From assembly GCF_001540865.1 (NCBI RefSeq), contig NC_033629.1, positions 74,501-138,500 on the forward strand: DNA of 64,000 nucleotides. Direction: 5' to 3'. The notes below the pieces were generated by a model. That model was not told where the DNA came from. It saw only the letters and a program-made list of their open reading frames with translations, and did not search any database. The position numbers and the translations under genes are program-made. Positions 1-26,496 of the stretch are shown here, piece after piece; the first letter of the stretch is position 1; the number at the start of each line of letters is the position of its first letter. Source of the stretch: Ananas comosus. Its lineage: Eukaryota; Streptophyta; Magnoliopsida; Poales; Bromeliaceae.

Positions 1-1009
1 TTGATGATCCCAGATTCTCTCAACCTCAATGTCAGCATGATAAACAAGGGGAGAAATATGACGACACCTCATCTTATTGCCAAGAGGTTCCTGTGCCCCT
101 CAGAAGTGCTGTCGATACTGATCCAGAAACTACGCATACACAAGAAAATAGGAATGAATCTCTAGTAAAAGACTCATCGGTTGAGGCAACAAGCGAAGTA
201 ACAGAGATCCATTATTCTTCTGAAGAAGAGGATGATTGTCCAATTTGCCTTGAAGGTGAGCTGAATGAAGCAATTTATTTCTGTTTCATTTTTGTTTCAT
301 CTGCTTCTCCCTCTGCTTGCCAATTTCTTTCCATGAAGGAACTGAAATACAACAATTTTCTGGATTCAAGGAATGATGTAAAAATAATGTAATGGTGTGC
401 TAGAAGAGATTGATAACTTTAGAAGTAAAGTAGCATTTTTGTTTTAGTATTTTCACTTTAAGAAATCACTTGGATGTGCACCATCCCTTCTAAGGTAACT
501 TCTCATAACCAACTCTGCTCATATCCTATGTCAAATGCAGAAATTCACTTATTGTTACCCATTTTAGTCCTGTAGGCTCACTATTTCTGTAATTTGAACT
601 TTTAGACAGGGATCTAGCTGTACTGTAACAAGAAAGTATGGTTTATTTCATTTTGCTCCTATCATGCAAGCTTAAATTAACTCCCTCTACGGCGTTTTAT
701 TGAAGATTTCTTTTGCACGTTCTTTGCAGAATATACATCTGAAAATCCGAGGATAATTTTGCAATGCAATCATCACTATCACCTCAGTTGTATATATGAG
801 TGGATGGAGAGGAGCCAAGCTTGTCCAATCTGTGGCGAGGTAAAGGGCTGCTCGCTTATTTTGCTCGGCCTGTGAAGTCGATCTGTTCATATTTTCTCAG
901 ATGGTATTAATGAAGGCCTCGTTCCTTCCATTCTCCTGATATTTTTTCTATCATTTTGCCCTTTCTGCAGGTGATGTTGTTCAAGGAGGCGACATCAAAC
1001 TTTTCCTAA
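1..1009 (+). CDS. RING-H2 E3 ubiquitin ligase, RHB1A/At3g02290 type (3' part)
   Basis: This is the C-terminal part of a RING-finger protein that starts before the window. The exons are 1(frame from 3)-255, 730-839 and 971-1009, ending in TAA. An acidic, serine-rich linker (SSEEEDD) leads into the RING. CPICLEE closes exon 1, and exon 2 carries QCNHHYHLSCIYEWMERS and then CPICGE. The cysteine/histidine order fits a C3H2C3 RING-H2, which would recruit an E2 and catalyse ubiquitin transfer. The final exon adds VMLFKEATSNFS. The split of the RING across an intron and the IYEWMERS string match the Arabidopsis RHB1A/At3g02290/At5g15790 subfamily. Substrates are unknown. The RCC1 gene follows on the same strand, an order also found in Arabidopsis. 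Confidence 0.9.
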
Positions 1010-5400: not shown

Positions 5401-8075
5401 GAAGGATTTTGGTGCTGTGGCACGGGGATGTGTTGTGCCGTCACAAGAAATACCTACGCGCCTACGCATAATGGCATGAACTTTTTTTTTTTTTCTTTAT
5501 TAATTTTTTTGAACTTTATTGAGAAAAGTACTTGCTAATTTTAAAGAAAAAAGAGTTTTGACCTATGCAATTGGTCGGGACAGGGTCATATCGCGCCGAT
5601 ATCTTGTCGCCGGGTGCCAATGGACACTTAAAATCTTTGTTTTCAATTACCGCATCCTCAAACCAAATACTATCAACTACTAGTTGGTTGAATGTGTTTT
5701 CATTTTGGTTGTCTTTCATCATCCTTCATCATTTTATGCAACTAGTTTTGGTTGTTCTGCTGATTTGTATCAATAAGCTGCTTCAATTTATCTTTTTAGG
5801 TTAGTTCTCCTTGATAGCATAAGTCTAGGTGTCTGTTGCAAAATAAGCTATGTTCAGGTAACATCTGTACACTTCTACCTAAAGGATATCTCCGTGGGCT
5901 AGCAAATAAACATTTTGATATCTGTGATGTAATAATGTTTCTTCTAAATATATCTTTTATGAGTGCTGATTATTTCTCTATTGCGTATGTTGCCAGCTCA
6001 AAATCAAAACTCAAGAGGTATAGTAGTACAGTTGCATCTTTAATAGAAAATCAAAGAGGAGTGATTAATTATTATGTAATTGCTTCCAGACTGCATTATT
6101 TGATATCCACAAGATAGGAGTGGACGGAAGTGGCTAATAGAAGTAATAAGAGAAAAATGGAGACGTGCTACTAGATTACTTAAGAGCTAGCAAGGAAGAT
6201 ACTGTACTTCGCAATTCGTATTGCTTTTTATACCAGTCTCCTAATCTTTTCTTCATGTACCTGTGATATTGCACCTACTCATTATTTGTCTGATCTCATC
6301 AACAGTGCCTAAAGTGACTATGCTAGAATTACTATATCTGAAATGTTTCCTATTTCAGACTACAGATGCCAGGGCAGTTAATTAGATGATGTATAGATTT
6401 CAGTTGTCTAGTCTTTTCAAAAAGTTTCCGAAGTTGTTTATGTTCTTTTACATCTTAATTGTCCAGGGCATTTGGTAGTCTTGTCTTGATGGCGTTGTGT
6501 ATCTCTTGATTCAGATTTGCAAGACTTTTAGTGCTTAAAATTTGATGTCTCTTTCTACGATTATTTCTTATGATCATATGTAACTTGCATCAAGTATATC
6601 ATCCCCAAACTGAAAGTAAAAGCAATAGTGCTTTGTTTTCTCAGGGTTTTAGGGTTTTCCACACAACTTCGAAGCTATCAAATTCTACCAGCATCAATTG
6701 TTGATATATATTTTTTTTTCTCCTCTTGTGCCACTCTTGGTTGATATTCACATAATGCTGATACTTGTTGGTGAACATATGAAAACACCATTTGCTTCTT
6801 GGCACCTATGTTAATTTTGTATTTGTTATGACTTATTTCTGTATCTTTTTTTTAATTTTCGAGGGTTTTTTTCTTTTCTTTTTTTTTGAGGGGCCTCCTT
6901 TAACTTTCGGATTTTACAGGTACACTTGGGGGCTAGGAAGTATGGGGCAGCTTGGACATTGCTCCCTTCAATATGGAGATAAAGAGCTACTTCCAAGACG
7001 AGTGGTTGCTCTTGACAGTATAGTCATCAAGGATGTTGCTTGTGGTGGTGTGCATACATGTGCTGCAACTGCAGAAGGTGCCCTCTATGCGTGGGGTGGT
7101 GGGCAAGCAGGGCAGTTGGGTCTGGGCCCCCAAAATGGCCTCTTCTCGTGCACACTTAATGGGTCTGAGATGCTGCTCCGTAATCTCCCAGCATTTATCA
7201 TACCATCTGGGGTGCAACTTGTGACTTGTGGTCATTCTCACACCCTTGTCTCCATGAGGGATGGGAGGATATATGGATGGGGCTATAACAATTATGGCCA
7301 GGCAGCGAATGATAAATCTACTTACGCGTGGTACCCTTCTCCTGTTGATTGGTGGGTTTTTTTAAAAAAAAACTTTTCTCTCAAGCCTTTTCTTGCTTTA
7401 GCAATTTATTTGGATTGGTGATTTCTTTTCTTTTATGCGGAAGGTGTGTGGGAGAGGTGAGAAGATTGGCAGCAGGTGGTGGTCATTCAGCTGTTTTAAC
7501 AGATGCTTGCTCGTTGAAGGAATTGTGTGAGTTCAAGCTTGCTGAGAGTGTCAATCTGTCTAATGCTTTCCTAATTGAGGACGTTGCATCCCGGACAGGT
7601 GCAGATTCCTTGTCACGCCTGTGTGAAAGATTAAGGTATCATCTGCACCTACATTTTGGGACTATGCACTGACTGATTTGTTTTTATGAACAAGAGAATT
7701 ACTAGTTTCTGCTTGGTGCTTTTGAGGCCGCTGCTTTATGTTAAATCCATGTGTTGTCTTTTCCAACTGACCCTACATTTCTTGTTTAAGTGATTGTAGG
7801 TTTTTTACTTCAGCAATTACTGTTGGTCCAAAATTTTTTATTGTTATTGCCTTGGGTCCAACCAAATTCTGCACGCAAATTGCACCTTTTCATCTATTTC
7901 CTAGTGAAAATATTGTAAGACGTCATTCAATAGCTGGAGTGACTCATTTGGAGCACTGACTTGGGAAACCAATCTTTTGCTTGGAAAGTTGTACTGATTC
8001 GTTATCGACTCTTGCAGGGAACATTTTCTTAATCAAATTGACTGTGACTGCGAAGAGAACGTGGACACTGACTAA
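2453..8075 (+). CDS. RCC1-repeat (UVR8-like fold) protein, At3g02300 type
   Basis: Exons are 2453-2702, 3257-3450, 3561-3608, 4612-4684, 5043-5214, 6920-7351, 7444-7635 and 8018-8075. They join in phase to 473 codons (472 aa), close to the roughly 471 aa of At3g02300. The product is a string of RCC1 repeats, visible as repeated W-G-x-N-x-x-G-Q-L-G and C-G-x-x-H-T-A segments (YVWGYNHSGQ, CGREHTAAV, GSNDYGQLGDGT, CGAHCTAAI, GYNEYGQLGRG, CGEYHTAAI, GSMGQLGHCS, CGGVHTCAA, GWGYNNYGQA, GGGHSAVLTD). The family forms a seven-bladed propeller, so a protein-interaction role is likely. The UV-B-sensing tryptophan triad of UVR8 could not be confirmed, so photoreceptor function is not claimed. A short acidic tail (CEENVDTD) ends the protein. 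ATG 2453 is chosen because the leader intron ends just before it. Confidence 0.9.
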
Positions 8076-8734
8076 ATGTACTCTCTGCCACATTCATCAT
8101 TCTATACACGGTATGATTTATTTTTATAAGTACATTAGTTAGAAATATAGACTCATTTTTTTAAGTTGTATTTTCCAAGTAAGCTACGGACAATGAAACT
8201 GCATGTTGTCTCTTGTTAATTATCATGTGCATTTAGGAAAGAAAGGATAGAACTGTCTCTGTCTCTCTCTCTAGCCTGCAAACATAATATGGCGTAGCTA
8301 GTGGGATTCTTGTGACTGCTTGCACTGCTGATAACTTGCATTTTTATTAGTAAGGTATTGCAGTCATTTAATTTCTGTAAGACATGGAAAAATAGAGCTA
8401 AGCAGTTATTAGCATTTCAGTATGCCATCATACCATGTGCTTGCTGCCCCTGTTTTGGTTGAAAAGTGAACAAGTACCAACAACACTAGTGTGAAAGCTT
8501 TTAGTATATATGTTTTTATCAGCGTTAAGGCATGTATTTAGAGCAGTTCGCTTTCTTTACAGCACAGTGAGGATGATGTTATGCATTTCATGATGCTTGT
8601 TAATAGCTGCTGTGTTTCAGCCTATGATTTTCGTATGTAATCACAGGTGAATCCTTACCTTTTGTTATGAGATTCACTCAGATTTCTTAGGTCTAGTATT
8701 TATTCTGTTAAGACTTGACATTGAGAAAAGAGCT
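8076..8734. other. Intergenic: RCC1 gene 3' flank
   Basis: This is the likely 3' UTR and downstream spacer of the RCC1 gene. It is AT-rich, and no gene or repeat was recognised. Confidence 0.5.
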
Positions 8735-9420
8735 TGGGCATACCCATGTGCGTTTGGGTGCGCGTGTGGGATGCGTGTGGGTGGGTACGTGTATGGGGTG
8801 GGTGTGCGGGATGCGTGTGGGTGCGTGCGTGTGGGGTGGGTGCGTGCATGTGTGTGGGTGTGTATGCACATGTGCGTGTGCCTGCACGGCATGCTGGGCA
8901 TGTGTGTGTGGGTGTGTGCGCATGTGTGGCATGCTGGGCATCTGTGTGGGGGTAGGGTGTGGGCATGTGTGTGTGTGCGTGTGTGGCATGCTGGGCATCT
9001 GTGTGGGTGGGTGTAGGGTGTGGGGTGTGTGGGTAGACGCGTGTGGGTGAGGGTGCGTGCGTGCGGGGTGTGGCTTGGTGCGTGTGTGCGTGAGTCGGTG
9101 TATGGGTGTGGAGTGTGGGTGGGTGGGTGTGGGGCGTATGGGTTGGGACTGGGGGCTGCGTGTGGGTGGGTGGGGTGTGGGGTGTGGGGTGTGGGGGTGC
9201 GTGTGGGTAGGCGGGCGTCAGGTGTGTGGTGGACATGATGGGTGCATGGGTTGGTGGGTGTGGGTGTCTGTGTGAGCGCGCTTGTGTGTGCCCGCCCACA
9301 GCACGTGTGTGGGTGTGCTTGTCAGGTCAGCGTAGTGGGCGGTAGGGGTGGGTCTGGGTGTTTGTTGGGTATGCTTGTGGGTGCATCGGCGTGCGGGTGT
9401 GTATGTGTGAGGCTTCATGG
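8735..9420. repeat. G/T-rich minisatellite
   Basis: About 690 bp of the + strand is built almost only from GTGTGG, GGGTGTG and GTGCGT words, with A and C nearly absent. A higher-order segment (GGCATGCTGGGCATSTGTGTG) recurs near 8886, 8927 and 8986. Long frames on both strands here (His/Thr/Pro- or Cys/Gly/Val-rich) are artefacts of the repeat. Many runs of three or more G make quadruplex formation plausible. Confidence 0.9.
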
Positions 9421-9594: not shown

Positions 9595-10499
9595 AGTGCT
9601 GAAGCATCGACAGTGATATACTTAAAAAGGAGCATGAGTTCGTCGTGTCTACCCCGCATGTGCAAATGAACATAGCGCAGACGAGAGAAATGAACGCACA
9701 TTTTGTGCATCCACGCACGGGTGCATTTGTCTACACACGTGTATGGAGGGAAAACCCTAAACGCTTCTAAACGTGCGTATTGAACACATTTGCGAACACG
9801 TCCAGGTAATTGCTCATAAAAAAATTAACATTTGAGCCCAAAACAAACACTATTTTGAAGAGATTATCACCTGCACTGTGTATGTCAAATCAGCCGTTTA
9901 TCCTCCGTGCATCATAAACTTAAGTGCTCTACCACCCTGTAAGTTGTCAGCCTTTTCTTAATTTAGAAAATCATGCGCTTCTGGATGATTGGTGATTGGA
10001 AGAACACCATGAGCATACACACCCGCACCCACACCCGCCCGTATGTATGCGAACACAAACAACTAAACTACGTGCACACAGATGGTCCCTACAAATTTGC
10101 GCACACCAAAATTTAAAAAAAAGCCGCTCGCTCTGTGAGCGTGTGGACACACGAAACAAGGGAATACACAAGGGCACAAGGCTAAACAAAACATCAAAGG
10201 TGTGGGATCATGCCCTTCGAGCTGTCATAGCTGCTAACCCCTGCATTAATCGATAACAAGCCTGACCATGGGGAGACTTTTAGGTGGCGATTCCAATCAT
10301 ATTATGCTAGCAGATAGGTGTATCCACGACTGCCCGATGCATTTACATTTTGGTTGTACCCGCTAAGAGAGTAACAGCCAACATTTTCTATCTGGTTTAA
10401 TATCTTAGCAACCTACAATCTCATCACTATCGTTCTGTAGTACAACTGATAAACCAACTAGGTAGGTAGAAAAGGATTATTGTAAGAGAGGTACCTGAG
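9595..10499. other. Intergenic, no gene seen
   Basis: This is the spacer between the RCC1 gene and the 3' end of the MADS pseudogene on the other strand. It contains a short CA-rich patch near 10013-10050. No conserved frame was recognised. Confidence 0.5.
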
Positions 10500-13400
10500 G
10501 TTTAAGGGAGGAAGAGTTTTAAGTCCATAGGAATGAAGCGTGCCGTGAGGAACTTGGGCATGTTTGTTGTTGCTCCCACTCTGGCGGATGCACCTGTCTT
10601 GCTTCCTTCTGCTTCTCCATTACCTGTCGTCATCGGTAAGTCATCCCCCGCGAATTCACAATACAGACAACTATCTGAGAACACAAGTCACGACTGCATT
10701 TCCTTATTAATCGCAACTAAGCATAAGATATAGTTTACTCAAAAACAAACAAAACAAAAAAATATATATGCTTACTTCCTCCACTAGAACCTTGTTATGT
10801 TCCAGCTGTGACTTTTCCCGTAGATTGAAGGTGTGGCTCAGTAGACAATTTTAAGTTCTACTTCACAACTCCGTCAGAAATGAACACGAGGAGCACATTA
10901 AATAACAAGAAACTGCCGACAAAATACAGATATCAATACGACAATAACAATATTTAGGGGGGAAAAAATTCAATGACCTAGGAACCTTTGACCAAACAGA
11001 ACATGAACATAATGAGAAATGAAAACAGAAAGCATAAACAGATCAGAAGCAAGCACGTCGTTATTATCATATTTATGCATTGTAAAATACAAGACAAGAA
11101 AATACCAAACGTAACCACAACTGATGGTAATGAATGTTAAACAGAATTTTCTTCAGACAAAACCTTTTTCTGAAGCTCAGAGATCGAATCAAGCATTAGT
11201 TGGCTCTGCACCAGATAAAAAATCACATTAATGTCACCTACAGCCATATATAAAAAAAAAATGTGCTCAGATTACTCATGAAAGAGCATGTCTGATCAGG
11301 CGAAACAGTCATAGAACTTTATGCACCATAACTGCAATATTTTTTGGAGGCAATTACTGAAAACATTAATCTGCTTCCCAATGTCTTTTTCCCAGGAAGG
11401 TAGAATACTTGCGTATTACAATAGCACCTTTCAGGTGAATAACACAGAGACCTTGTTTGTATCTCTAGCACGTCCAAAAATAGGTATGTACATTTTTCTT
11501 TTTTAAGCAAACAGCTAAAGAGCAATGAAGAAGTTTGACTTCAGTACCTAAACTTTGTTCCAATCTTCAAGTTTAAACAAATGGAGGGAAAAAAATGAAA
11601 GGATATGGGGAAAGGGCGGAAAGTTGATAGTGAGTAGTGACATTAGAAAAGCTGTAGTAGGATGATAAGGTGGTAATAAAACACGAGACTGCACAATTTT
11701 ATTTTATTTTTGCAAAAGATATAACAATCTAGAGTTATTGTTAGAGGACCCAAATGATGATCAACTTTCAAGAATTTTGAGCTACATCTAAAACTAGTAA
11801 CTGTATACAAACAAAAGAAGCAGACTGCTAAAAGTCTTTCGACCTTTCATCAACTGATAAATAAGGTGGATTTAAAAGCGGACATTGTCTACACTATTAG
11901 AAACTCAATATAAAATTCATGAATCTGATACTCCTTATGTGGAAAACTTTGTAAAATTGTGTTTTCGGCAATAAATCTGTCCATTTTTTATGTATAGTTT
12001 CAATATATCAGTAAAGAGCTATAAATCAAATTATTTCTGATTCATAGGTAGTCGAATTTTCTAGGTCATGATGGATTGTGCTGACCTTGAAATACAACAG
12101 TTAATTGACAGTACAAGTAATGAATTTTTTGTGAAAGAATTGAAGCAAAGTGCTCTCTCTTAAATGTACCTTTCTTGATCTTAGAAGCTTCAAGGAACTA
12201 TCCAATTGTTGCTCGAGTTGTTGTAGTTCTTTGAAATTCAATGAGTTGAGCTCCCATAAGGTGCTTAAAATTGTCAAATCAAGCTAATATGAGCATGTTC
12301 TTATATATGCCATTTTTCCATTTTTATGAAACTAATTACCTTTAACTTTTGTGTATCGCATCAATATTTATTTTCAGTTTGTTGTATTTGAGGCACCAGT
12401 TACCCTTTTGAGATAAAATATTTGTCAGCTGCTGGTACACACATTGCACGATTCATTTATTTACGAATAAAAGTTAGCTGAATGACTAAACAAGTGATTA
12501 AAAGATTATGCTAAAAAGAATAAGATTGGGCCTAACATAGGACAAACCACGGTTACCTAATTTGTAAAATACCCTCTGAATTTCGAATTAATGGCAAAAC
12601 AGGTGATCCGTGCAAACCTCTTAACCCTATATTGGAATCATATTGAGCAGCATATCCAGATATATCAGTACGTACATACATGTATATTAGTATATATATG
12701 TATGCACATAAATGTATATGTATCTAATATTTTCATTTATTTACATTTTGTGTTTCAAGTAAATGTTTTCTATTCATATAAATCATGCCAATAAAGACTA
12801 CCTCCAATCATACTATGTTTTAGAGCAAGTAGCATTTAGCAATCCCATCCCTATTCTGCAAACCATATCGATCTGCGCTTTAGGTAACAATGTAACATAG
12901 GGGNGGGGATTGATTATCAAGGAGTTGATCACCTAGTTGTTTCGTATTATCCTTGTGATTTAAAATAACTAAATTTGGGCATAACCATCTTTCTTGAGAA
13001 AGAAATGAAAGTAATTTTTCTCACTCATTAAATTTGCCAGCGAATGACATTCAACCAGTAGAACAAAAATTATTCAAGATTGTCCAGAAACATTCTTGCA
13101 GTATATTTGATTTTGTCACAAGAAAGGAGAACAGCAGATATCAAATAAAGCCGCTTCTTTGTAAGGCAAGATTGGGCAATCATGTTAAAAAAAAATATAA
13201 CCACTATTTCTGGGCATTTCCTATTACATTCATCTTTCGTAAAACACTGATTACCCATTTACTGACGTGCAGAAGACATATTTCATTCCCAAACTAACAA
13301 AATAGTCATTTCTAACTGACGATAGATTTAAAAACATGTGAAACCACTCGAAATCCGACTTAAACTGGCATTTTTTGACAGAAATTGAAGCTAACATGAG

Positions 13401-14170
13401 CTTGCAATAATGTTTTTAATCAACCTGAAAACCAGTTTGTGCGTGTAAACTGATTTTAATCTTGAAGCAAGTTACCAATACATTATTAGTTACCTTAATT
13501 TTGCAAATACCACAGGCATACATATCCACTATATATCTTTCTGGTGCACTAGGTTGGATACTTTGGACATGCCCCCAAGATCTAAAACTGCTTTCCTACA
13601 TTTTAAACAACTAACACAACAATAATGAGAAGCCAAATAAAATATTTCATGGAAAATTTAAGTATGTACATCTAATTAATGAGTAGAATGTTTCTTAAAA
13701 TAGTTAATGGCATTACTTTCCTTGTTCTTTCCGCCACTTGGCACATAGATGTGCTCATGAAAACTATTAGTTGTTGAAAAGAAACAGAAGATGAGGAGAA
13801 GAGTCGAATATTTGAGTGGGCAAAAAAAAAAAAAAAAAAAAAAGAGAAAAAGAGGAGGGGGCAGCTAGGGTAATGTTTTAATGTATTTCAGAAGTTTCAA
13901 GGAGGAAAGCCGAAATAGGAAAATGAAATAGTACATTAATTAACTGGTCACTAGATCCATAATAAGGACCAGAATCATGAGAAGGGGGAGATCATAAGAG
14001 AGCTAGGCCTTGCTCATCAGTGGAAAAGACACACAGAATGAAAGCGTAGTTACATGATGAATCAAAGAAAATGATGATTATGAGGAACAGCCTAGAAGTG
14101 CAGAAATATACAGGAAAAAGGATACCAAAATGGAAATCAAAAACTAAAAAGAAAAAGTAAACCCTAATTC

Positions 14171-14208
<38 letters not shown>

Positions 14209-14897
14209 GAGATCTATGGCTTGTTTCTCACGCTTTCGTACTAAAGCTGCGAAGGCTCATAATCCAATGTAACCGCACGACAATCAGGGGTCGCGACGAT
14301 CTCGGGACGTGGATCTCACGCCATTTGCTCTCAAATTTGGCTATATACGGAACATCGGAAGCGATTTACGCATCAGGGTCCAGAGAAGCGTGAAAGAAAA
14401 TTTTCATCCGTGGAAAGAGAAACCGATGAAGTGTAAAACAAAAAAAAAAAAAAAATAAAGAAAGAAAGAAATAAATGCATTCCCGGTATCGGACAGACGA
14501 ACAAGCACCAGAACCCAAGAACAACACATAAACTAGGAAATAAACCGTAATTCGCACTCGTACACTACGTCTTCTTTCCTAAAATTCTAGGGCACGGAAA
14601 ATATATGAATCCGTAACAGATCGATGTTGATGCCATAATTAAGGGGGGTAAAAAAAGAGAGAGAGAGAGCAAAAAAAAGTGGCGAGCAGTTCGAGAGAGA
14701 TGAAGAGATGAGAGAGATGATCGCACCAGGAATGGGTGGCGTACTCGTAGAGCTTTTCCCTGGTGGAGAAAACGATGAGGGCCACCTCGGCGTCGCACGC
14801 GCGCCTTCTTCACCAATCCATTTCTCCGCTTCGAGAACGTCCCCTCCCTATTGATCTTGTTCTCGATCCGCTTCAGCTGCACCCTCCCCCTCCCCAC
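10500..14897 (-). pseudogene. AP1/FUL-like (SQUAMOSA clade) MADS-box pseudogene
   Basis: Exon remnants read on the minus strand. Exon 1 (about 14721-14897) encodes [15 protein letters not shown], then [11 protein letters not shown]; after a frame break it continues [20 protein letters not shown], which is FUL-like. Exon 4 (12170-12263) keeps the K-box text KELQQLEQQLDSSLK, exon 5 (11164-11205) gives SQLMLDSISELQKK, exon 6 (10776-10817) gives EKSQLEHNKVLVEE, and exon 7 (from 10623 down) gives MEKQKEARQVHPPEWEQQQ. Breaks seen: the start ATG is lost (GTG, or a 2-bp insertion after ATG); about 14 bp encoding the residues before CDAE are missing; exon 4 is about 5 bp short inside the QLNSLN segment; exon 6 has GG instead of AG at its acceptor; exon 7 reaches a stop soon after SSSRHASFLWT. 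Exons 2 and 3 were not found. An intact copy would be a floral or inflorescence identity factor, but this copy cannot make one. Confidence 0.85.
14158..14204. repeat. (GA)n microsatellite in the MADS pseudogene
   Basis: About 20 GA units follow AACCCTAATTCTA in the first intron of the FUL-like pseudogene. Similar GA/CT tracts sit beside several genes in the window. Confidence 0.8.
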
Positions 14898-14915
14898 ATA
14901 TCCCGATCTCCAACT

Positions 14916-14953
14916 AAACCCTAACCCTAACCCTAACCCTAACCCTAACCCTA
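14916..14953. repeat. Interstitial telomere-type repeat (CCCTAA)n
   Basis: Six consecutive CCCTAA units stand about 20 bp upstream of the MADS pseudogene start (minus strand). This is the plant (TTTAGGG-like) motif class, but in the six-base TTAGGG form. Short telo-boxes are common in plant promoters. Six perfect units are more than a usual box and may be microsatellite expansion of one, or a repair scar. A GA-rich tract follows at 14975-15010. Confidence 0.85.
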
Positions 14954-15261
14954 TCGTACAACCTACGAACAACAAAGAGAGAGAGAGGGAGAGGGAGAGG
15001 GAGAGAGAGGTAGGGTTTGGTGGTGGTGGTGTTAGGGGAAGGAGCTTGGAGGGCGAGAGGCGATGGGTGTGGTTTTGCAAGGGTTGGAGAGATGGGAACA
15101 GGAAGGTGGTATTTGGAAACCGGAGTGGTTTTTCGTGGGTATACGCTGTCGCGTTGTGATTGGTGGGGATGGACTCTGCCAAAGGCATGTTAATGAAGCT
15201 CTGTCTCGTTTCGTACGGACAACTAAGACATAAAGGCGCACGGCCCGCCGCCCCCCCACCC

Positions 15262-15303
<42 letters not shown>

Positions 15304-16696
15304 ACGTACCTCACGCCCCTAATTTTAATGACGGTGCAGAAACAAATGCCCTCCACATTGTGGGATATTACGATTGTGCCACTCAACCTTGTAACGATAC
15401 GTCGACGTGCGCGACCATGCCACCCACCGAGCATGCTCTGATCCGTCGCTTCGTTAGCAGCCAACGGTGGGATGAGCGCCTTAATTCTCGCCGCTAGCGG
15501 ACAACCGACGGTCACGATCGCCCGACCACCTGATGCGGCCTTCCACTGCTCTATTGAGCAGAGCTGATTCGGGATTACGGGATTTTCTAGAATTGCTCGA
15601 CTCATGGTGAAATTAATTTGTGGCCAACTAATCAAGATTAATAAGGAGTGCTATCCATACATTCCATACCAGTTTGAATAAATTTTGTGCGAACCATGTT
15701 AATCCATTTTTTCTCTCAATTCTTGTTAATCCATTTTTTCTCTCAATTCTTTTTCTTTTTTAAAATATATGAAACTTAGCACTACTCCGCAAGATATAAT
15801 CTTGGCATGCACCATCTATTAATTCAGACAATAATGTGTCAATCATGCATGTACCCACCACTCATGCAGAAAGAAATATTAAGGCTAGCTTGTCGGCCGG
15901 GAAACACAAGGGGGCAGCAAAAGCGGAACAATCTACATTGCTGGATGTTCAAATTTATAACTGGATCATCAGATGCATGCACGCAGCCTGTTGGATACCA
16001 ATCATGTGAGGCATCGCTATTTCGATACCATATCATCAACAAATAATGTATATACATACACGCTTATTATTAACAAATTAATAGCAGAGAAACCTTTCTT
16101 TTTCTTTTCTTCTCTTTTTTTTCAACACTCTGGGGCCAGGGTAATCAGATCAGTTCCTGATCAGTTATGAACCACTACTTGATTGGGAAAAAGTGAAAGA
16201 AGATATTCATATTCTGATAACTACAAATGAGCATCTCCTGATTGGAATATTCATCATCGCCATGTGCCGGATAGATAAAGTGAACCAACTTTCTCACCAC
16301 AACTTCACATCAATTCTCAAGATAGCTAGTCGACCACTTCTCAAAGCAATTAATATCGTAAACATTGATGTACGAACTAACAACTATATATAAAGCTCAG
16401 TCTGAAAATTTAGAATATGCATCATATATCTTACACAAAAGGCCTGAATCTTACTGACCAGGGTGAAATAATTATTTGTTTTTTTTCAGCAAGATATTGC
16501 CTCCAACTCTTAATTAATAGCCACAACATAAAATCAAGCTCCATTTCGATCCATATACCATTCTATAGCTGTAGGAGTGTTTTATTCTTCTTCATGAGTT
16601 TTCTCGTGCATGCTTAAAAGCAAATATAAAATACAATACAGTAGTCGAGGAGGATATAAGACAAACAAGAGTTTGGTGGAAATGAAGCGTAAGGCT
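14954..16696. other. Intergenic between the SEP gene and the FUL-like pseudogene
   Basis: This 1.7-kb spacer separates two MADS genes that are transcribed in the same direction. Apart from the poly-C tract and a small duplication of TTAATCCATTTTTTCTCTCA near 15700-15745, nothing was recognised. It would have been the promoter of the FUL-like gene. Confidence 0.5.
15263..15303. repeat. 41-base poly-C tract
   Basis: An uninterrupted run of about 41 C is preceded by CCCACCCACC. Reverse-strand glycine-rich and forward-strand proline-rich frames across it are artefacts. The exact length is probably uncertain in the assembly. Confidence 0.85.
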
Positions 16697-17928
16697 TCAT
16701 CCTATCCATCCAGGAGGATAGACGTTCTCACCTGTTGTTGCATCAGCTGCATTCAACTGATTAGTATACATGGGATAGTACCTGCATGCAACCAATGCCG
16801 TATTAAGACAGTCACGTACATTCATCAGGAATGCAGTTTTTGGAGCAAATTTTTTTTTATGGAACAGTAACAAATTTAGTCATAACGTTTGATCGGAGCA
16901 CCAATTCAGTATTTAAACATACAACTATATATAATAACATTATCTGTGAACTTTGAGTTTTCATTTGTGTTTCTTCTCAAATGTTTGCACAAAGTTCATT
17001 CCATGCACTGCAACAAAAACGGTCTATAGCGACAATTTTAAATGTCGGTACAGGTCAAAAAAGTGCTGCTGACTAAATTACTGACACTGTTAAAAAGTGT
17101 TGCTATATGTGGGGTCGCTAGGTATATAGTGACAGTTAAAGAGTGTCGCTATAACAAAAAAAAATGCTGTTAATTTACCAACACTTATTTAAACATTTAG
17201 CAATCGTCGGAACTCTAGCTCGTTGGCTGCAGTGGTGGAAGAGGACGAGAGGAAGGGATCTTCGTCTAGAATTTCAATGGATTGAGTGAGGGGAGAAGGG
17301 GAGATGATAATCGATTTTTCATTTTTTTTTTTCTTTTCTGTTTATAATCAGGCCGAATGGGCTGGGTGAGGTGGGTTGAGTAGAGTAATTTTTTATTTTT
17401 GGTTGGATTGGGTTTTATATTTAGGCATTAGTAGATTTTTTAAAAAATTTTGGCATAAATGGGACACTTATACAGAAGTGTCCCAAACATATGTCCTTAT
17501 AACCTAATTCTGTTGTAGTGATGTAAAGTATAACGGTAATGACGCTAGACATGATGCTTTTCCATAGGTAGACCAAAGGACTCGATTGTTACGCAAAACA
17601 AACTTTGGGAATAAATTGTTGCGATTGAAACTATGAGAAAGAAAATGAAATTCAAGTTGGAAAAAAAAGTGACAAAGCATATATATNTATATATATATAT
17701 ATAATTGGGCTGGAATAGTATCAATAGCACCAAACTATTGGTGCTATTAGTTTTGTAGCTCTTAGATTAAGAAATTTACGGTTAGGATGATGTGGTCCCC
17801 CTAGGGTTGAGTGGGTGTTGGTTGAATAGTATAATCTAACGGATAAAAATAATCAAAAGCATTAATCTAACAGCAGAAAACTTGATAGCACCAAGTGCTT
17901 GGTGCTATCGATAGCATAGCAGCCGAAC

Positions 17929-17965
<37 letters not shown>

Positions 17966-18625
17966 CGCGCTAGGCTCCTATACTATTTATAGTAATAGAG
18001 CTTCTGGTACTAGTCTCATTTTCAACTTTACAGTGTTCAAAATAACGATCCACATCCTTAAAACTGATCTAAGGTATTTAAAGTTTTTAGAAATAAAATT
18101 TTATATATTTTCCATGTAGTTTTACTTTATGATCAAATTATTTCAAATTTGTCAATTTTTAATAGTTATTATAGTGAGTTTGTAGTTTAACGGTGTAGAA
18201 GAATTTAAATTTATTCAAATTTTGATAGAATAAATCCTATTTTCAAATTTTAAAGATGGTTGATCTTGAATTCAAGATTGGAATATTCATCAGTATCGTT
18301 GATCTTGAATTGAAAAATCCTATTTTCGAATTTTAAAGATGGTTCAATTTTTTTTTTATTTTTTTTTTTGAGAGATAGGTAGCACGCTACTCGCTTCGTT
18401 TATTTCATTTTAGAAATAAACTTAGATGGTTCAATTTTTACCATTCATTTTTGACATGATTTATTACTAACTAAACGATGTTGAAAAAAAATTAAAATTT
18501 TATTTCTAACTTCATATATCTTAGATCATATTTGACGGTAAAGATCGTTTATTTGAACACTCTAAGATCGAAAACGAGACTATAGTACCAGAGCTCCGGT
18601 ACTATAGATGGTATAGTAGCATCAT

Positions 18626-18658
<33 letters not shown>

Positions 18659-21600
18659 GTTATCCATTTCTGACAGGAATTTACCCAATTTGAAGCGAAG
18701 GTTCAAAAGGTATGGGGTGAAAGAATCCCTGGGACGACTGTGAAGGCCTTTGATTGCAGGCTACATTAGATGCACCACCGGTGCCATTTTCCCAGGATAG
18801 TAGGAGGGGATCTTGTAAATCAGCTTCCTGCAACTGAGAGAGGTAGCCGTGCAAGCAAAGTTAACAAGCGAGCTGGTACAGACTTAAAAAAAGAAAAAAA
18901 AAAGAAAAAAAAAAAAAAAGAATATAAGAAATGAACAGCTAGCGTCAAATGTTGCATAAGTTGGTGCTGTTTCCGCAGAACATACAAGACCATTCTACTA
19001 GCTAGAGAGCATTGCCCTTTAAGCTAAAGCAGACTAGATCCAGTATCGACAAACATGTAAGCAACCGGATGTTCAATGTTTTGATTTGATGGAAAGAAAG
19101 AGGCCAACTGTGAAGTGAAAAAAAAAGGGCAGTTCTTATATGACTTACTGCTAACAATTTGGTTACATAAAATTAACAGAAATTCTTCCAAGAAACCTTT
19201 GACAGATTTCTTTGTGAACTACTGAAGTATTCATTAAATTACGTAAAAGTTCTCGACGAAAAAGCAATTTTCCTGCAATCATTTACTGTGTATGCAGATG
19301 ATAAGCAATTAATTAATGGAGAAGCATCACAAGTAGGCCATTAAATGGTTACCTCCCTTTTCAAAGATCTGTTTGCTTCTTGCAACATTTGTTCCTGCAT
19401 TTGGGTAAAACAGGTTGTTGAAACAAAATTTGGAACCAGAAGAAAGAAACACCACACACCCAAAAAAAAAAAAAAAAAAAAAAAGAGTAAAAAACCTTAG
19501 CATAAGGTGTAATACCTTTGTTTTAAGATCAGATAGCTCATCAAGCATTACTTGTGTCTGCAAATAATAGACATCAAAAAACAGAATTAGTAACTATAAG
19601 AAAGAAAATATATTCCAATTCCCTATTATCGATCATCATGCAGTGACACTGTCATGCTAAACTAGAGAGTGATACCACACATCTCTAAGCTAAAGCCATC
19701 CCAATTCTACATGGCAAAGACAGTTATATCAAATCACTACAACAAGCAAATATGTTGACTAGGAAAGCAACGGCTAGCTAGATGCCAAAAGAGAGATAGA
19801 TATATTGTTCTCGGAGGAAAAGCTCAAATGCGTTTGTAACATCCTTAGATATTTACCTTTCTTGATCTGATCTGCTTTAAGGACTTCTCTAATTGATTTT
19901 CAAGATGCTCGAGTTCATTCGAACTCAGTGGAATCAAATCCTCACCAAGAAGATTTCTGTATTATTAGTCATAAGATTCTCATTAGAAAAATAATCTGCA
20001 TGGAAAGGTACTCATAGCACTACTCAAAAATATTAAGTGAGATGGGAGCTAAAACAAAAAAAACCTTTGTGACTGCTGGAGAATCTCAACTCGCATCTTT
20101 AGTTTCAGATATTCCTGATAATTGCTCTGGGCCATATAAAAGAACCTCATTATATATCACAGAAGAGCATACAATCAAAAAAAGGGGGGGAAAAAAGTAG
20201 TTACCTTTCCTATGGAAACAGATACAACACAAAGGACAAAAAAAAAGAGAAATTGTTGTTTCTTAATTGTGTTGCGGAAAAAAGAGAGGCAAGAACAAAT
20301 AATTCAGGCACACTTATATTAGATATTTGAAAATTATTTACAAACATGGCTAGGTAACAAATTTCTTCCACAAAATTATATATATACTTTCCACAGGAAG
20401 AATGCGACGGACACATACCAGGACTATTGCCACCTTCTGCACATTTATAACTTGAAAGCAATTTTTTTAACACTATATCTAGCTTTAGCAAGCTGGGATT
20501 AGAGCAATATGAGGGACCAAATTTGGCGTGGGAAAATGTGCTCAGAAGAAATGCTACCATTATGGCATTAGAGTTGATTAACTGATAGCCTAAAAGGTAT
20601 ATATAATTACCACGGACAATGAAATATTTGCAAAAGAAAGGTGTAAAATTAATGGCAGGAAACAAAATTTGAGTACAACACTTAGCAGAGAAATGACGAA
20701 CAATATGTTTCAAAGAGTTTACGGAAGAGCTAACAAGCAAAGACAGGCAAGATGTCAAACGGAGCACAGATTTCATATCCAAGACCAGACAGATTCATTC
20801 AAGTAAAAGTGAAATATTAAGTGAAGATTTAAACAGACGAGCGCACCTAGCTATTATAGGTCTGCTTGCATCACTGTGTTAATTAATTTAACTAAACAAT
20901 AATCTATCAGAGAAACTACGTACCTTATACAATATTTAGAGAAGAGATTTTGCTACCTGTGTCTCAGTGGCTGGGACGGCAGCCTTTGATGCTGCATAAG
21001 TGTGTCTTTGATACCTTTCAAGAGTCTTAAGTATGCTGCAATAAAATTGGAGAAATCACTAATTAATTAGATGACACACCTCAGGAACATCTATATGAAG
21101 TTTGCTCACAACCATATATATATTGTTTGATTAATGAATCACTTTCTAAATTTATATAAGATGGATTTCTAAACATATATAAGATGGATCAGGCAGTGCA
21201 ACAGACCATCTGCAATTAAGTTAGATCATTCTCGAGAAAACGGGAATAACCAAACTATATATATATATATTTTGAACCTTCATGTCCGGAAAAATTAGCA
21301 GACGAGTCTCCTCATCTTTATTTGAGCATTGTTTGCGGTGAAAATCTAGATTTGTCTTCCTGGAGTAAAAGGCTCTTTGATCTACTAATTGTGGATACAT
21401 GAAGTGTTTGATATGGCAAACCAATCCTAAATCCTAAGCTGATTGGATGCAAACGTACACCAAAGAGAATGGAGCGGAGATGGAGTAAAACTAAGTATGC
21501 ATGCTCGATCGCAATTCAGATGGATCAGAGCGGAAGCCTTTGTTACTGGGGAACGAAGCTCTTTGATGAGAAGCGGTGAAATAAGGAATTGGTCTCTGAG

Positions 21601-24600
21601 AGACAGTAGTTCTCAAATACATCCGTATTCTCAATCTATGTGAAACTAGAAATGGTAAGCTGGGAAACCAATATAGTTAAGAAAACAGGTGACACATCTA
21701 GATTTTGAAATAGCTAGTCATATATATAAGATATAACAAGATTAAATCTCTAAACCCGGCTATAGCATTTTTGATTGATAACTAGGCCGAAGAGGTTAAG
21801 AGGATTAGGCATGGTAGGATTATAGTAGTTCTAGGATGAATGTGTTGGAAAATGATGCAAATCTTATCATGTTAGTGGCCCTATTATTGTACAAGCTCAG
21901 GAAAGCTCTTTATGGCCTGAAGCAAGCTCCTAGAGTGTGGTATAGCCGGCTTGATATCCATCTCCGACAACATGATTTTCATAGAAGTGAGAATGAACCA
22001 ACTTTATATATGAAGGTGAAAGGTAAAGAGATTATCATTATCTGTGTTTATGTCGATGACATAATCTATACAGGTTCATCAGATCTTCTTATTTGTGATT
22101 TCAAGAATATTATGATGCATGAATTTGATATGTCGGATTTGGGACTTTTACATTATTTTCTTGGTCTTCAAGTTATGCAGACTGATAATGGTATCTTTTT
22201 GACCCAAGAAAAGTATGCAGTGGATTTGCTTAAGAAATTTAAGTTACAAAACTGCAAGGGATGTGCAACTCCTGTGAATCCAAATGAAAAATTGACAAAA
22301 GATGATGGGACTGGAAAAGTTGATGCACAGATTTTCAGAAGTATAGTTGGGGGTTTAATGTATTTGACACATTCACGTCCTGATATTATGTTTTCTGTTA
22401 GCTTAATATCCAGATTTATGCATGATCCTACAAAGCATCACCTTGGAGCCGCAAAACGAATTCTACGCTACATTCAGGATAGTATTAATTTTAGCATTTG
22501 GTATCACCCAGTTACTAATTTCAAATTGGTTGGTTTTAGTGATAGTGATTGGGCAGGTTCTCAAGATGACAGAAAAAGCACAAGCGGATGGATATTCAAT
22601 TTTGGATCTGGAGCGGTCACGTGGGCATCAAAGAAGCAAGCTACTACCACTTTATCTTCCTCCGTAGCTGAATATATAGCAGCAACATCGGCCGCATGTC
22701 AAGCTGTGTGGATGCGAAGAATTTTGGAGGATCTATATCAAGCACAAGAATATCCGACGGAGATATATTGTGACAACCGCTCAACCATTGCAATGACGAA
22801 GAATCCGGTCTTTCACGGACGCATGAAACATATCGAAGTACGTCATCATTTCATCCGGGATCTTGTCAACAATAGGCAAATCGACATGAAGAATTGTTCC
22901 ACCAATGAACAAGTTGCTGATGGATTGACGAAAGCTCTATCTCATGACAAATTTTTGAAGTTCAGAAGAGCCCTCGGCGTTACTGAATTTGCATCAAGGG
23001 GGAGTGTTGGAAAATGATGCAAATCTTATGATGTTAGTGGCCCTACTATTGTGCAAGTAGTGGGTGCAANAAATAGTGGGCTAAGATCATGTAGATAGTG
23101 GATAAGTGCATGCCTTAATTTGTGTAAGTAGTGGGTAATTAATGTTGTGGAGTTCATGATAGCTAGTTTCTAGGAGCACATGTGTAGTGGATGTAGTGGA
23201 GAACATGTGTGGTTAGGTTTTCTTAAACTTCAAGTTTCTTATTCTATTTATGTCCTTTAATTGTAAGCCTTTTGTAATCAAGTTTTTGAATGAAAGTGTT
23301 TAATTTTTCTTCCACTTAATTGCTGTAGCAAAGTGTATTAGCAAGGCTTAAATTACTTTATGCCACTTTCATCTACAGAATGACCTGCCCAGACAAGATG
23401 GCATCAGTGTGGATATTAGAGCCTATCACCAGCCGAAAGAATGAGATGGGTCTTAATTGAGTCAGAGTCTAGATAACAAATTAAATCAGGATCTGAGAAT
23501 GATAGTGTAAACCATATTTTGAATGACAAGGATAACGAGACGAGTCTCAAATTACCTGGTGCTTGTGAGTATAATTAAGATTGATGAAAATATTAGATCA
23601 TAACTCGGGGGAGGAATGTGACGCATCAAAAATTTAGAATAGTGTTATATATAAGGTATATTATGGCTAAATCTTTTAATCCGAGTATTGCATTTTAGGC
23701 GATGGCTAGGGTAAGAGGTTTAAGAGGGTTAAGTAAGCTTAGAGCTAGAGTTATTCTAGGATGGCTGACCCCTCTGAGAAGCAAGGCATCACAGTTGGTA
23801 TCATAATTAATAGAAATTTCTTAATTATCACCAAATGTATGTGTAGAAACTTTAATGAAATGGAGATTTCATTCCACTTCAGTTTTTAGTAAAAGAGTCT
23901 ACATGGGTTGATATCTATGGGTTTTGAGATTCATCAATTAAAACATCACAATTTATGCACATTAAAACCTACAACCAATGCTCTATATTTTTAAAATAAA
24001 AACAAAACAAATAAACGTCGAGCAAAATACGACTTGATTGATATGGCAGTATGTTCCTTTTCCTTTCAGTGTATTTTTATTCTTTTCCAATTTGTTTCCC
24101 TTATCGTGTTTGATCATGCCAAAGTTTCAAACAATGACAAAATAAACCCTCAACATTTAGAGAAGTCCAACTTTGTTGATATGGCAATGCGGCAATGCCC
24201 CTAATTTTTTTTCTTCTCGACGTACTACAATTCTTTTCCAGGTTAGTTCTCACACCTTATCTACATTATGATAATTATCATATCTAATAAATGAGTATGA
24301 GTATCTTATTTCAAATAATGCGAAAATCCCATGACGTGACCTCAAACTGGCATGGTAAACTAGTAATTTTAAAATATATCTACATGACCATTGGGAGCCT
24401 CATCACCTACGCATGTGAACAATCCATAGGTGTACGTATTGAATTAGATCTTCCTCTAACTTATACACTTGGATTTTGTTGAACATACCCACCGTATGCG
24501 TAATTAATGCCCAGGTATCAATACTAGTATATTAATTTTCTCAACTAAGAACCATCAACTGCATGCCGGTAACAAAAATCATGTATAAATTTACCTCTCT

Positions 24601-24873
24601 ATGAGAAAATCATACAAACTGCCTTCTTGTCAACCAACAAGAATAAGAATGCATGTACATACATGAATCCATGCATGGATAGGTAGGTGTGCATATATGT
24701 AAGCTCTCACATTCCAATGTATAATTGCATGCATGTAGGCCTATGTAAAAATATTATTAAAAACACTCCTATATATATGAACATAAATACGTAGTTATTC
24801 TTCAAAGACTTAAAGGGCTAAATCATGCCCTCAAATTGAATTACATAAAATGGTAAGACAAAATATGTGTCAC

Positions 24874-24913
<40 letters not shown>

Positions 24914-26496
24914 AAATCGTCAATTTTAAAATGTCTTTATTTATATATACTTGAAGATGAATTAGAGTATTAATTGATTTGGAACTACTTCACACCTAGA
25001 AAATAATTGCCAATCTTCATAGTTCTTTTGATGAGTAAATTAAACTATACGAGACCACAGCAATGGTTTTGTATTCTATATCTCATTTGAGGCCCTTTAC
25101 TTTTAGGATTTGCCGATTTCTTTTTTTACATCTTTTTTACATATATACATAGCAGACTAGCTAGTACTGTAAGACTCTTTATTCTTACTCTAGTATAATA
25201 TAATATAATCCTGTTTCCTGCACGTACTTGTAAACACATAGTACATTCATATATTTACATAAATGTTTTGTAGTTAGTTATTATGGATTTTGTGTACCAA
25301 CTGGTGTTCCTGCGTCTGCTTCGAAAAGAAAATTAGTCATATATTATTAGCAGCCAACAGCGAGAAATATCATAAAGTTTCTTGTAACAGTAGCATATGA
25401 GGCACTTCCTGTTACAACTTTATGCATACGAGGAAGAAGTACAAGCGATTGCACCCCGAAAGTCTTAAACTTGCTGCTGACAAGGCAATAAGAAATTAAG
25501 AAGGGGTAATTAATTAGAAAAATCAAAAAAAAAAAAAAATTCAATAGCCAAAAAGATCAAGCAAAGTAGCAATCAAACACATATTTTCATAAAAGAAAGA
25601 AAGTGGCAATCAATAAAAACAGCATAATGGCAAGCATCAAAGAGAACTTGATCATTAAAGTACCATATACATAATTAGCTTTATAGATCCTTTGTAATAT
25701 AACAAAACATAGAATGAAGGAATTAAAGTAACAAGTACGATAAGGAGTAAGTATCCCAATGGAAAAATATTCAGGCCCGAAAACATAAGCTCATTTGTAC
25801 CAATTCTTCCGATTCCATCTCCGAATAATTTATTTATTTTTCACAACTTTCTTCGTTCCGTGATTCGATTGAAAGCTAGGAAAAATAAATAAATCATTAG
25901 GCCAGGGAAAAAAAACTGCAAGAAAAATTACGACGCCACGACCAAGATAAGCACAAACAAAAAGTAACAAACGATCGATCAAAAACGAAGAAGACTAGCT
26001 ATAATTTCCTTCTCAATCAAATTATAGCTCTTCAGAGACCGTGCGTTGCACATCGAGATCGCCTAAACAGCAGGAGACTACCACAAATGACATAGGAAGG
26101 AAGGAAGGGCACACTTATAAGGTTTAAATGCAAGAATTGTAGACGGATCCGATAAAAGGTGCAGGTGGCGATTAAAGTCTTACGTACTGCAACGAATAAT
26201 GAGAAGAAACCCGAGCAAGCATAGATAGCATAGCATACATAGAAGCAGCTTCTAATTACTAATTAGCGTGTGTGTGTATTATATATATAATAGATGTATA
26301 GATCTACGTACCTGGAGCTGCTGCAGAACTCGAAGAGCCTGCCGCGGTTGGAGAAGATGATGAGGGCGACCTCGGCATCGCAGAGCACGGAGAGCTCGTA
26401 CGCCTTCTTCAGCAATCCGTTCCTCCGCTTCGCGAACGTCACCTGCCGGCTTATCTTGTTCTCAATCCGCTTCAGCTCCACCCTCCCCCTCCCCAT
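16697..26496 (-). CDS. SEPALLATA-like MADS-box transcription factor, LOFSEP (SEP1/2, OsMADS1/5) type
   Basis: Eight exons, 5' to 3': 26312-26496, 20957-21035, 20065-20126, 19857-19956, 19516-19557, 19353-19394, 18685-18833 and 16697-16781. Their lengths (185, 79, 62, 100, 42, 42, 149, 85) follow the canonical SEP pattern and total 248 codons. MADS domain: [15 protein letters not shown], then [20 protein letters not shown], then [14 protein letters not shown]. The I/K region includes [28 protein letters not shown] and [18 protein letters not shown]. The C-terminus keeps an LSW motif, [17 protein letters not shown] (SEP motif I) and ends YPPGWIG (motif II-like). The family supplies the bridging subunit of floral quartets that bind CArG boxes in the nucleus. 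Intron 1 is about 5.3 kb and intron 7 about 1.9 kb, both loaded with transposons. No breaks in the coding exons were seen. Confidence 0.95.
17006..17520. mobile_element. Non-autonomous CACTA (En/Spm) element
   Basis: The element starts CACTGCAACAAAAACGG and ends TTCTGTTGTAGTG, so its termini are inverted CACTRCAACA repeats. It is flanked by a perfect 3-bp duplication, ATG (17003-17005 and 17521-17523), as expected for CACTA elements. Subterminal repeats such as TATAGCGACA and TATAGTGACAGTT are visible. It is 515 bp with no transposase, and lies in intron 7 of the SEP gene. Confidence 0.9.
17706..17927. mobile_element. MITE family A, copy 1
   Basis: A 222-bp element has imperfect terminal inverted repeats (GGCTGGAATAGTATCAATAG... 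against CGGCTGCTATGCTATCGATA...). Both ends contain ATAGCACCAA. It is inserted in a TA microsatellite, so a TA-type target duplication is likely but cannot be measured. A second copy is at 46075-46295. It has no coding capacity and lies in SEP intron 7. Confidence 0.85.
17940..18645. mobile_element. MITE family B with long imperfect inverted repeats
   Basis: The left end (GAGAGA tract, then CTATACTATTTATAGTAATA, then CTGGTACTAGTCTCATTTTC) pairs with the reverse complement of the right end (GAGAGA tract, then CTATACCATCTATAGTACCG, then CTGGTACTATAGTCTCGTTT). The arms are about 90 bp and the element about 700 bp. It carries no frame and lies in TA repeats directly next to MITE A. A SINE fragment is nested at 18352-18424. 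Confidence 0.8.
18352..18424 (-). mobile_element. 5'-truncated SINE inside MITE B
   Basis: A poly-T tract plus GAGAGATAGGTAGCACGCTA and CGCTTCGTTTATTTCATTTT is the reverse of the SINE 3' end. It is flanked by direct copies of AGATGGTTCAATTTTT (near 18337 and 18424), a target-site duplication of about 15 bp. The promoter half is missing, which fits incomplete target-primed reverse transcription. Confidence 0.85.
19357..21424. other. SEP gene introns 1 (start) to 6: no other gene seen
   Basis: Between the small SEP exons the DNA is AT-rich intron. A 190-codon minus-strand frame at 20210-20782 lies in the second intron (between exons 2 and 3), has no family resemblance and is treated as chance. 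Confidence 0.6.
21836..23017 (+). CDS. Copia pol fragment: reverse transcriptase C-part and RNase H
   Basis: An open 393-codon frame runs from the 5' LTR remnant into pol. It has the RT motif [15 protein letters not shown], the catalytic YVDDI, and the later LHYFLGLQV. RNase H follows with [44 protein letters not shown] and [11 protein letters not shown]. The first roughly 18 residues are LTR sequence read in frame, so the apparent ATG is not a natural start. There is no internal stop, which suggests a fairly young insertion. Confidence 0.9.
   Translation: MNVLENDANLIMLVALLLYKLRKALYGLKQAPRVWYSRLDIHLRQHDFHRSENEPTLYMKVKGKEIIIICVYVDDIIYTGSSDLLICDFKNIMMHEFDMSDLGLLHYFLGLQVMQTDNGIFLTQEKYAVDLLKKFKLQNCKGCATPVNPNEKLTKDDGTGKVDAQIFRSIVGGLMYLTHSRPDIMFSVSLISRFMHDPTKHHLGAAKRILRYIQDSINFSIWYHPVTNFKLVGFSDSDWAGSQDDRKSTSGWIFNFGSGAVTWASKKQATTTLSSSVAEYIAATSAACQAVWMRRILEDLYQAQEYPTEIYCDNRSTIAMTKNPVFHGRMKHIEVRHHFIRDLVNNRQIDMKNCSTNEQVADGLTKALSHDKFLKFRRALGVTEFASRGSVGK
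21843..23377 (+). mobile_element. Internally deleted Ty1/Copia retrotransposon
   Basis: The element begins TGTTGGAAAATGATGC and ends CATCTACA, with a perfect 5-bp duplication GAATG on both sides (21838-21842, 23378-23382). The 3' LTR is 23005-23377 (373 bp) and is preceded by the purine tract AAGGGGGAG. The 5' LTR keeps only its first 53 bp (three mismatches to the 3' LTR) and is then fused to the reverse transcriptase at TACAAGCTCAGGAAAGC. Everything between (rest of LTR, primer site, gag, protease, integrase) is gone. It is 1,535 bp in total and lies antisense in SEP intron 1. It cannot move by itself. Confidence 0.92.
23794..26311. other. SEP intron 1, 5' portion
   Basis: This is AT-rich intron between the retroelement nest and exon 1. 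In AGAMOUS-, SEP- and AP1-type genes the large first intron often carries regulatory sites. No clear CArG box was picked out by eye. Confidence 0.4.
24878..24911. repeat. (AT)n microsatellite in SEP intron 1
   Basis: About 17 AT units follow CACGAATAT. Purely simple sequence. Confidence 0.85.

Follow-up and report, generated by a model that had tools for sequence, protein, structure and literature searches.

In the ancestor of angiosperms a LOFSEP and a SQUA gene lay in close tandem (PMC9656651, citing Ruelens 2013), and such tandems are established knowledge. In the genome of pineapple (Ananas comosus) a dead MADS gene lies just downstream of a LOFSEP gene, and the locus raises the question of whether the dead gene is the second half of an inherited pair, and of what became of the pair elsewhere in the genome. 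The stretch of DNA analyzed, called the window, measures 64,000 nucleotides and corresponds to C9:74501-138500, on LG09. All positions are those of the window, unless preceded by a chromosome.

A LOFSEP gene followed by an AP1/FUL pseudogene

Features of the two MADS loci are the following.

10495..14900, minus strand (as the LOFSEP gene): AP1/FUL pseudogene, called the relic; tblastn and DNA alignment to AcFUL1
10495..10623, minus strand: relic exon 7; splice sites intact, reading frame disrupted by indels
10776..10817, minus strand: relic exon 6, 42 bp; acceptor GG in place of AG, donor intact
11164..11205, minus strand: relic exon 5, 42 bp; open, acceptor and donor intact
12170..12263, minus strand: relic exon 4 (K box); 5-nt deletion, acceptor shifted by one base, donor intact
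12340..12404, minus strand: relic exon 3, 65 bp; in-frame TAA inside, AG and GT preserved at its borders
14729..14900, minus strand: relic exon 1 (MADS box); matched in two frames by tblastn, E 7.6e-19
15105..15164, minus strand: FUL promoter remnant, about 60 bp, 75% identical to a stretch upstream of AcFUL1, E 8.7e-4
16697..26496, minus strand: intact LOFSEP (SEP1-like) gene AcSEP1; tblastn, database protein match, Pfam
about 26496-26312, 21035-20957, 20127-20064, 19958-19859, 19557-19516, 19394-19353, 18833-18672, 16780-16697, minus strand: AcSEP1 exons; tblastn, exact ends read by eye

The protein assembled from the eight AcSEP1 exons measures 247 aa, is 100% identical to an Ananas comosus database entry, and features MADS and K-box domains (Pfam). 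In Table 1 of PMC7806820 AcSEP1 is the single SEP1-type gene of pineapple (LG09:90797-101510), and two AP1/FUL genes are listed, AcFUL1 on LG07 and AcFUL2 on LG01. AcSEP1 would be of the LOFSEP-B type, since LOFSEP-A is stated to be lost in pineapple (PMC9656651). In a tree of 54 proteins, in which the relic is represented by 145 residues, AcSEP1 groups with LOFSEP genes of sedge, Typha latifolia and Elaeis. Its database name, "AGL9 homolog", is misleading in this respect, AGL9 being SEP3 (PMC7806820). A Copia-type LTR element carrying an internal deletion (21843-23377; RVT_2 domain, target-site duplication GAATG, 3' LTR at about 23005-23377) resides in intron 1 of AcSEP1.

The AcSEP1 coding region ends at about 16700 and the relic starts at about 14900, which leaves a gap of about 1.8 kb. 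Order, orientation and spacing are as described in an earlier inspection of the window (the sequence-only reading), which had reported an intact LOFSEP gene and, 1.8 kb downstream in the same orientation, a dead AP1/FUL-like gene. Six of the eight relic exons (1 and 3 to 7) can be traced with AcFUL1 as tblastn query, in order and at the AcFUL1 exon boundaries. Exons 1, 4, 5 and 7 were all found where the sequence-only reading had claimed them; its inventory holds for exons 1 and 4 to 7, and missed exon 3. Lesions not given in that reading are the TAA in exon 3, the AG to GG change at the exon 6 acceptor, a 14-nt deletion, which together with a small insertion near the start breaks the frame of exon 1, and the 5-nt deletion.

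Exons 1 and 4 were judged by the E-values of their DNA alignments to AcFUL1 (1.7e-44 and 2.5e-23, respectively), exons 2, 3, 5, 6 and 8 by a shuffle test (200 shuffles each). The scores of exons 3, 5 and 6 were reached by none of 200 shuffles. The best alignment of exon 2 (about 13345-13416) was reached by 5 of 200, and that of exon 8 by 22 of 200, and both exons are counted as not found. The C-terminal FUL motif, located in the last exon and seen as LPPWML in living FUL proteins, was accordingly not found in the relic. The relic being a pseudogene, loss of exon 8 does not exclude FUL descent.

Lesions were read by eye from the alignment to AcFUL1 DNA. At least six are disabling, and they are spread over 4.4 kb; which of them occurred first cannot be told from the sequence. 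The relic, having both introns and several disabling lesions, is an unprocessed pseudogene, and probably yields no protein product. A retrocopy origin is ruled out, as the exons are still split by introns.

Low-complexity tracts surround the relic. A run of telomere-like CCCTAA units is found just upstream of its start (about 14913-14953), where AcFUL1 has at the matching position only a short AGGGTTT-type motif. A long poly-C run is located further upstream (15258-15303), a GT-rich stretch past the 3' end (8650-9420).

Four homeologous segments

The relic and AcSEP1 reside between genes which recur on other chromosomes. Three of them served as anchors.

3..872, plus strand: RING-finger gene pieces; common to C9, C7, C15
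32738..35917, minus strand: RGP (reversibly glycosylated polypeptide) gene pieces; common to C9, C7, C1, C15
42383..44354, minus strand: COBRA-like gene pieces; common to C9, C1, C15

Segments of C9, C7, C1 and C15 have flanking genes in common, in one order and orientation. The order is RING (+), relic (-), LOFSEP (-), RGP (-) in the window, and RING (+), AcFUL1 (-), RGP (-) on C7, where order and strands match those of the window. Genome searches identified AcFUL2 (-), RGP (-) and two COBRA matches on C1, and RING (+), RGP (-) and COBRA (-) on C15. The RGP exon has five matches genome-wide, four of which fall inside the four segments, and identity to the window copy is 87% on C7, 81% on C1 and 75% on C15. 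COBRA copies are 86% (C15), 82% and 78% (both C1) identical to that of the window, and no C7 match was listed in the COBRA genome search. RING belongs to a larger family: the query found 27 matches in the genome, among which the C15 and C7 copies rank second and third, and none is near AcFUL2. The link between C9 and C7 rests on only three coding anchors plus the MADS genes. The sequence-only reading had taken the relic for an AP1/FUL member and the remnant of a LOFSEP-AP1/FUL tandem; this agrees with the matching position of AcFUL1 on the homeologous segment, and with the adjacency and single orientation of relic and AcSEP1.

The four segments offer eight possible places, four for LOFSEP and four for FUL genes. 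Three genes (LOFSEP on C9, FUL on C7 and C1) and one relic were found in these places, and each segment is devoid of at least one living partner. The 19.6 kb between AcFUL1 and RGP on C7 (C7:228866-248502) contain no N, and none of the eight LOFSEP exons scored there above the maximum of 60 shuffles. In C15:2.81-2.85 Mb no MADS-box match was found among 57 genome matches, and none of 91 AcFUL1 matches (E up to 10) falls in this interval; C15 and most of C1 were assessed by these genome searches, rather than by reading the DNA for LOFSEP remnants. No intact LOFSEP-FUL pair occurs among the pineapple MADS loci found. Loss on C9 and C7 is reciprocal: C9 has a LOFSEP gene and a dead FUL gene, C7 has AcFUL1, and its LOFSEP gene is gone. 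That a single member of such a pair was lost, as the sequence-only reading had put it, is borne out; the picture was incomplete, this being one of several losses across the four segments.

An RCC1-repeat gene located between RING and the relic (6783-7672) is found, among the four segments, on C9 only; no second copy comes close to it, as the strongest among 19 further matches has an E of 2.3e-8. The first exon of the C7 RGP copy (C7:250899-251236) matches in broken frames only, by decay or assembly error. A second FUL fragment at C7:9230016-9230111 was discarded, as it is a 300-bp exact copy of the AcAGL6 locus (identified by position) on C3; this MADS fragment is followed by N and poly-A, and is probably an assembly misjoin.

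Affiliation of the relic and alternative readings

FUL and LOFSEP proteins are separated in the tree with support 100/100. The relic, placed on the SQUAMOSA side as the sequence-only reading had expected, groups with AcFUL1 (93/71), and both with a Typha gene (96/82). Protein identity of the relic is 78% with AcFUL1 on LG07, its nearest relative, 68% with AcFUL2, and 53% with the adjacent LOFSEP. FUL residues are found at four of four columns diagnostic of FUL versus LOFSEP, and FUL-I residues at two of two FUL-I/FUL-II columns, a small number. Tree, identities and diagnostic columns point to the AP1/FUL (SQUAMOSA) clade, and the relic is most likely FUL-like I (OsMADS14/15 side). An early idea of an OsMADS18-like relic, drawn from rice gene order, was not borne out. 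AU tests reject the relic neither with Typha_lat_a (p 0.49) nor with grass and sedge FUL-I genes (p 0.25); fine placement is beyond the reach of 145 decaying residues, and the genome context is more telling.

Ka and Ks were calculated on gap-free in-frame blocks (143 codons, 140 with all three genes), which excluded exons 2 and 8, stretches with indels, and what remained of exon 7. Values are Ka 0.138 and Ks 0.610 (0.41-0.92) for relic and AcFUL1 (143 codons), Ka 0.196 and Ks 1.26 for relic and AcFUL2, Ka 0.120 and Ks 0.98 for AcFUL1 and AcFUL2. The C9 and C7 RGP copies (258 codons, three exons) give Ka 0.050 and Ks 0.714 (0.52-0.96), close to the relic-AcFUL1 Ks, so that a single duplication fits both pairs. 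For the RING pieces Ks is 1.08, calculated on 122 loosely aligned codons.

Descent of the relic from the older FUL-II lineage, which includes AcFUL2 and OsMADS18, with the C9 segment paired to C1 rather than C7, is very unlikely. The AU test does not reject the relic with the FUL-II set (p 0.10), and COBRA ties C9 to C1 and C15, but the relic is rejected as sister of AcFUL2 (p 0.00055), is separated from the latter by a Ks about twice that from AcFUL1, and features FUL-I residues at the two columns mentioned, few as they are; moreover, the window RGP is closer to the C7 than to the C1 copy. It is even harder to envisage that a copy of AcFUL1, transposed or made by a later segmental duplication, came to lie beside a LOFSEP gene by chance. 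AcFUL1 is indeed the nearest relative of the relic, but both loci sit between RING and RGP genes of matching order and strands, relic and flanking RGP have equal Ks within error, and LOFSEP-SQUA pairing is known as the ancestral condition (PMC9656651). A retro- or transposed copy, or a member of another clade, had been named as a refuting outcome in the sequence-only reading; introns are kept, and the RING and RGP flanks match those of C7.

The assembly has misjoins and single Ns, and errors of assembly or sequencing might make a living gene look dead. This is extremely unlikely here, since no fewer than six lesions are spread along 4.4 kb, two exons could not be traced, and Ka is raised on the relic lineage; in addition, the pineapple surveys, in the parts available, feature no FUL on LG09 (PMC7806820) and only AcFUL1 and AcFUL2 (PMC9597317). 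A decayed local duplicate of the adjoining LOFSEP gene would fit adjacency, orientation, exon plan, and the position between FUL and all LOFSEP rows that the AU test does not reject (p 0.35), but may be dismissed with near certainty, as the relic is rejected as sister of the pineapple LOFSEP (p 1.3e-5), is far less identical to it (53%) than to AcFUL1 (78%), and carries FUL residues at all four diagnostic columns.

The relic is thus very probably the decayed FUL half of a LOFSEP-FUL tandem, present in four segment copies generated by the tau and sigma duplications, each of which lost one or both partners. The tandem would have been inherited from before the angiosperm radiation, and tau, then sigma, would have produced the copies on C9, C7, C1 and C15; identification of the duplications with tau and sigma, and the sigma pairing of segments beyond C9 and C7, are tentative. 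C9 would have retained LOFSEP while its FUL decayed in place, C7 would have retained FUL (AcFUL1) and lost LOFSEP, C1 would have kept FUL (AcFUL2) only, and C15, as judged from genome searches, neither.

Timing and setting of the loss

On the relic lineage Ka amounts to 0.109, against 0.033 on that of AcFUL1, and the relic value was the higher one in every bootstrap kept. The share of relic history spent without constraint is 0.27 (95% interval 0.12-0.53) with equal branches, 0.26 (0.08-0.53) if a different functional Ka/Ks is assumed, and 0.14 (-0.05 to 0.61) when synonymous branches are unequal. Apparently the gene stayed alive for most of the time after duplication, and died late; "freshly pseudogenised", the wording of the sequence-only reading, is not supported by an unconstrained share of about 0.27 or 0.14. 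An age of about 110 Mya has been given for sigma (PMC12058305), and one of 100-120 Mya for the pineapple duplication (PMC9452560). The C9/C7 duplication may correspond to sigma; the Ks values of relic and RGP agree with each other. Applied to an age of about 110 My for sigma, an unconstrained share of 14-27% since C9 and C7 split would put the loss about 15-30 million years ago, with a wide error (share intervals of about 0 to 61%), and a recent loss is included in the unequal-branch model.

After genome doubling FUL copies may have overlapped in function, and overlap with AcFUL1 and AcFUL2 may have let the C9 FUL decay. At the pineapple apex AcFUL1 and AcFUL2 are both up-regulated after ethephon, and the LOFSEP gene Aco017563 was weakly expressed in the same study (PMC10644199); with such expression, loss of the C9 FUL could be tolerated. 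Homeologous segments likewise lose different members of a gene set in post-WGD fractionation of plants. The pineapple case is the same in kind, and is notable in that an ancient linked pair was split, and one loss is still readable. Complete loss, a decaying relic and retained single genes can be read side by side as stages of the break-up, and with the relic as a marker the loss may be dated in bromeliads at large.

MIKC exon phases match, and splicing of the relic could therefore make LOFSEP-FUL chimeras. That the relic is not silent, exon 5 and the kept splice sites being spliced into read-through LOFSEP transcripts, or the relic promoter acting on LOFSEP, is a conjecture of very low probability. 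Putative chimeras, if made, would be a natural counterpart of the tomato rin fusion. In the tomato RIN-MC pair, too, a SQUA gene lies just downstream of a SEP gene; there both genes were alive and were fused by mutation (PMC9656651), whereas in pineapple the SQUA gene decayed.

No description of the relic was found in the passages of the literature consulted. The present analysis adds the finding that C9 and C7 lost opposite partners, and a four-segment account of the missing living LOFSEP-FUL pair. LOFSEP-SQUA linkage has persisted in many flowering plants, which hints at co-regulation (PMC9656651). Pineapple apparently has no living pair, yet it flowers, its one LOFSEP and two FUL genes being located on separate chromosomes; linkage is thus not obligatory. 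SEP and AP1 genes are fewer in pineapple than in rice and orchid (PMC7806820), and break-up of the pair helps to explain their low number.

Pairs elsewhere feature the same gene types, adjacent and in one orientation, as in rice, where OsMADS34-OsMADS14, 6 kb apart, is the sole remaining pair (PMC9656651); pineapple differs in its dead FUL member, and no living pair was found elsewhere in its genome. The check in related species proposed in the sequence-only reading was made through published statements and protein match lists. From these lists (best 120 matches each), sixteen species with both a LOFSEP and a FUL match on a contig of stated length were compared by eye, where equal contig size suggests the same chromosome, rather than adjacency. 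Among the matches listed, no equal-size pair was seen in seven of the 16 species (Ananas, two Typha, Zingiber, Tasmannia, Persea, Dioscorea alata), while LOFSEP and FUL reside on contigs of equal size in the other nine (Rhynchospora, Elaeis, Phoenix, Nelumbo, Magnolia, Aristolochia, Telopea, Macadamia, Alnus). In the sedge Rhynchospora tenuis the LOFSEP and FUL matches, on contigs of equal size, carry consecutive locus tags.
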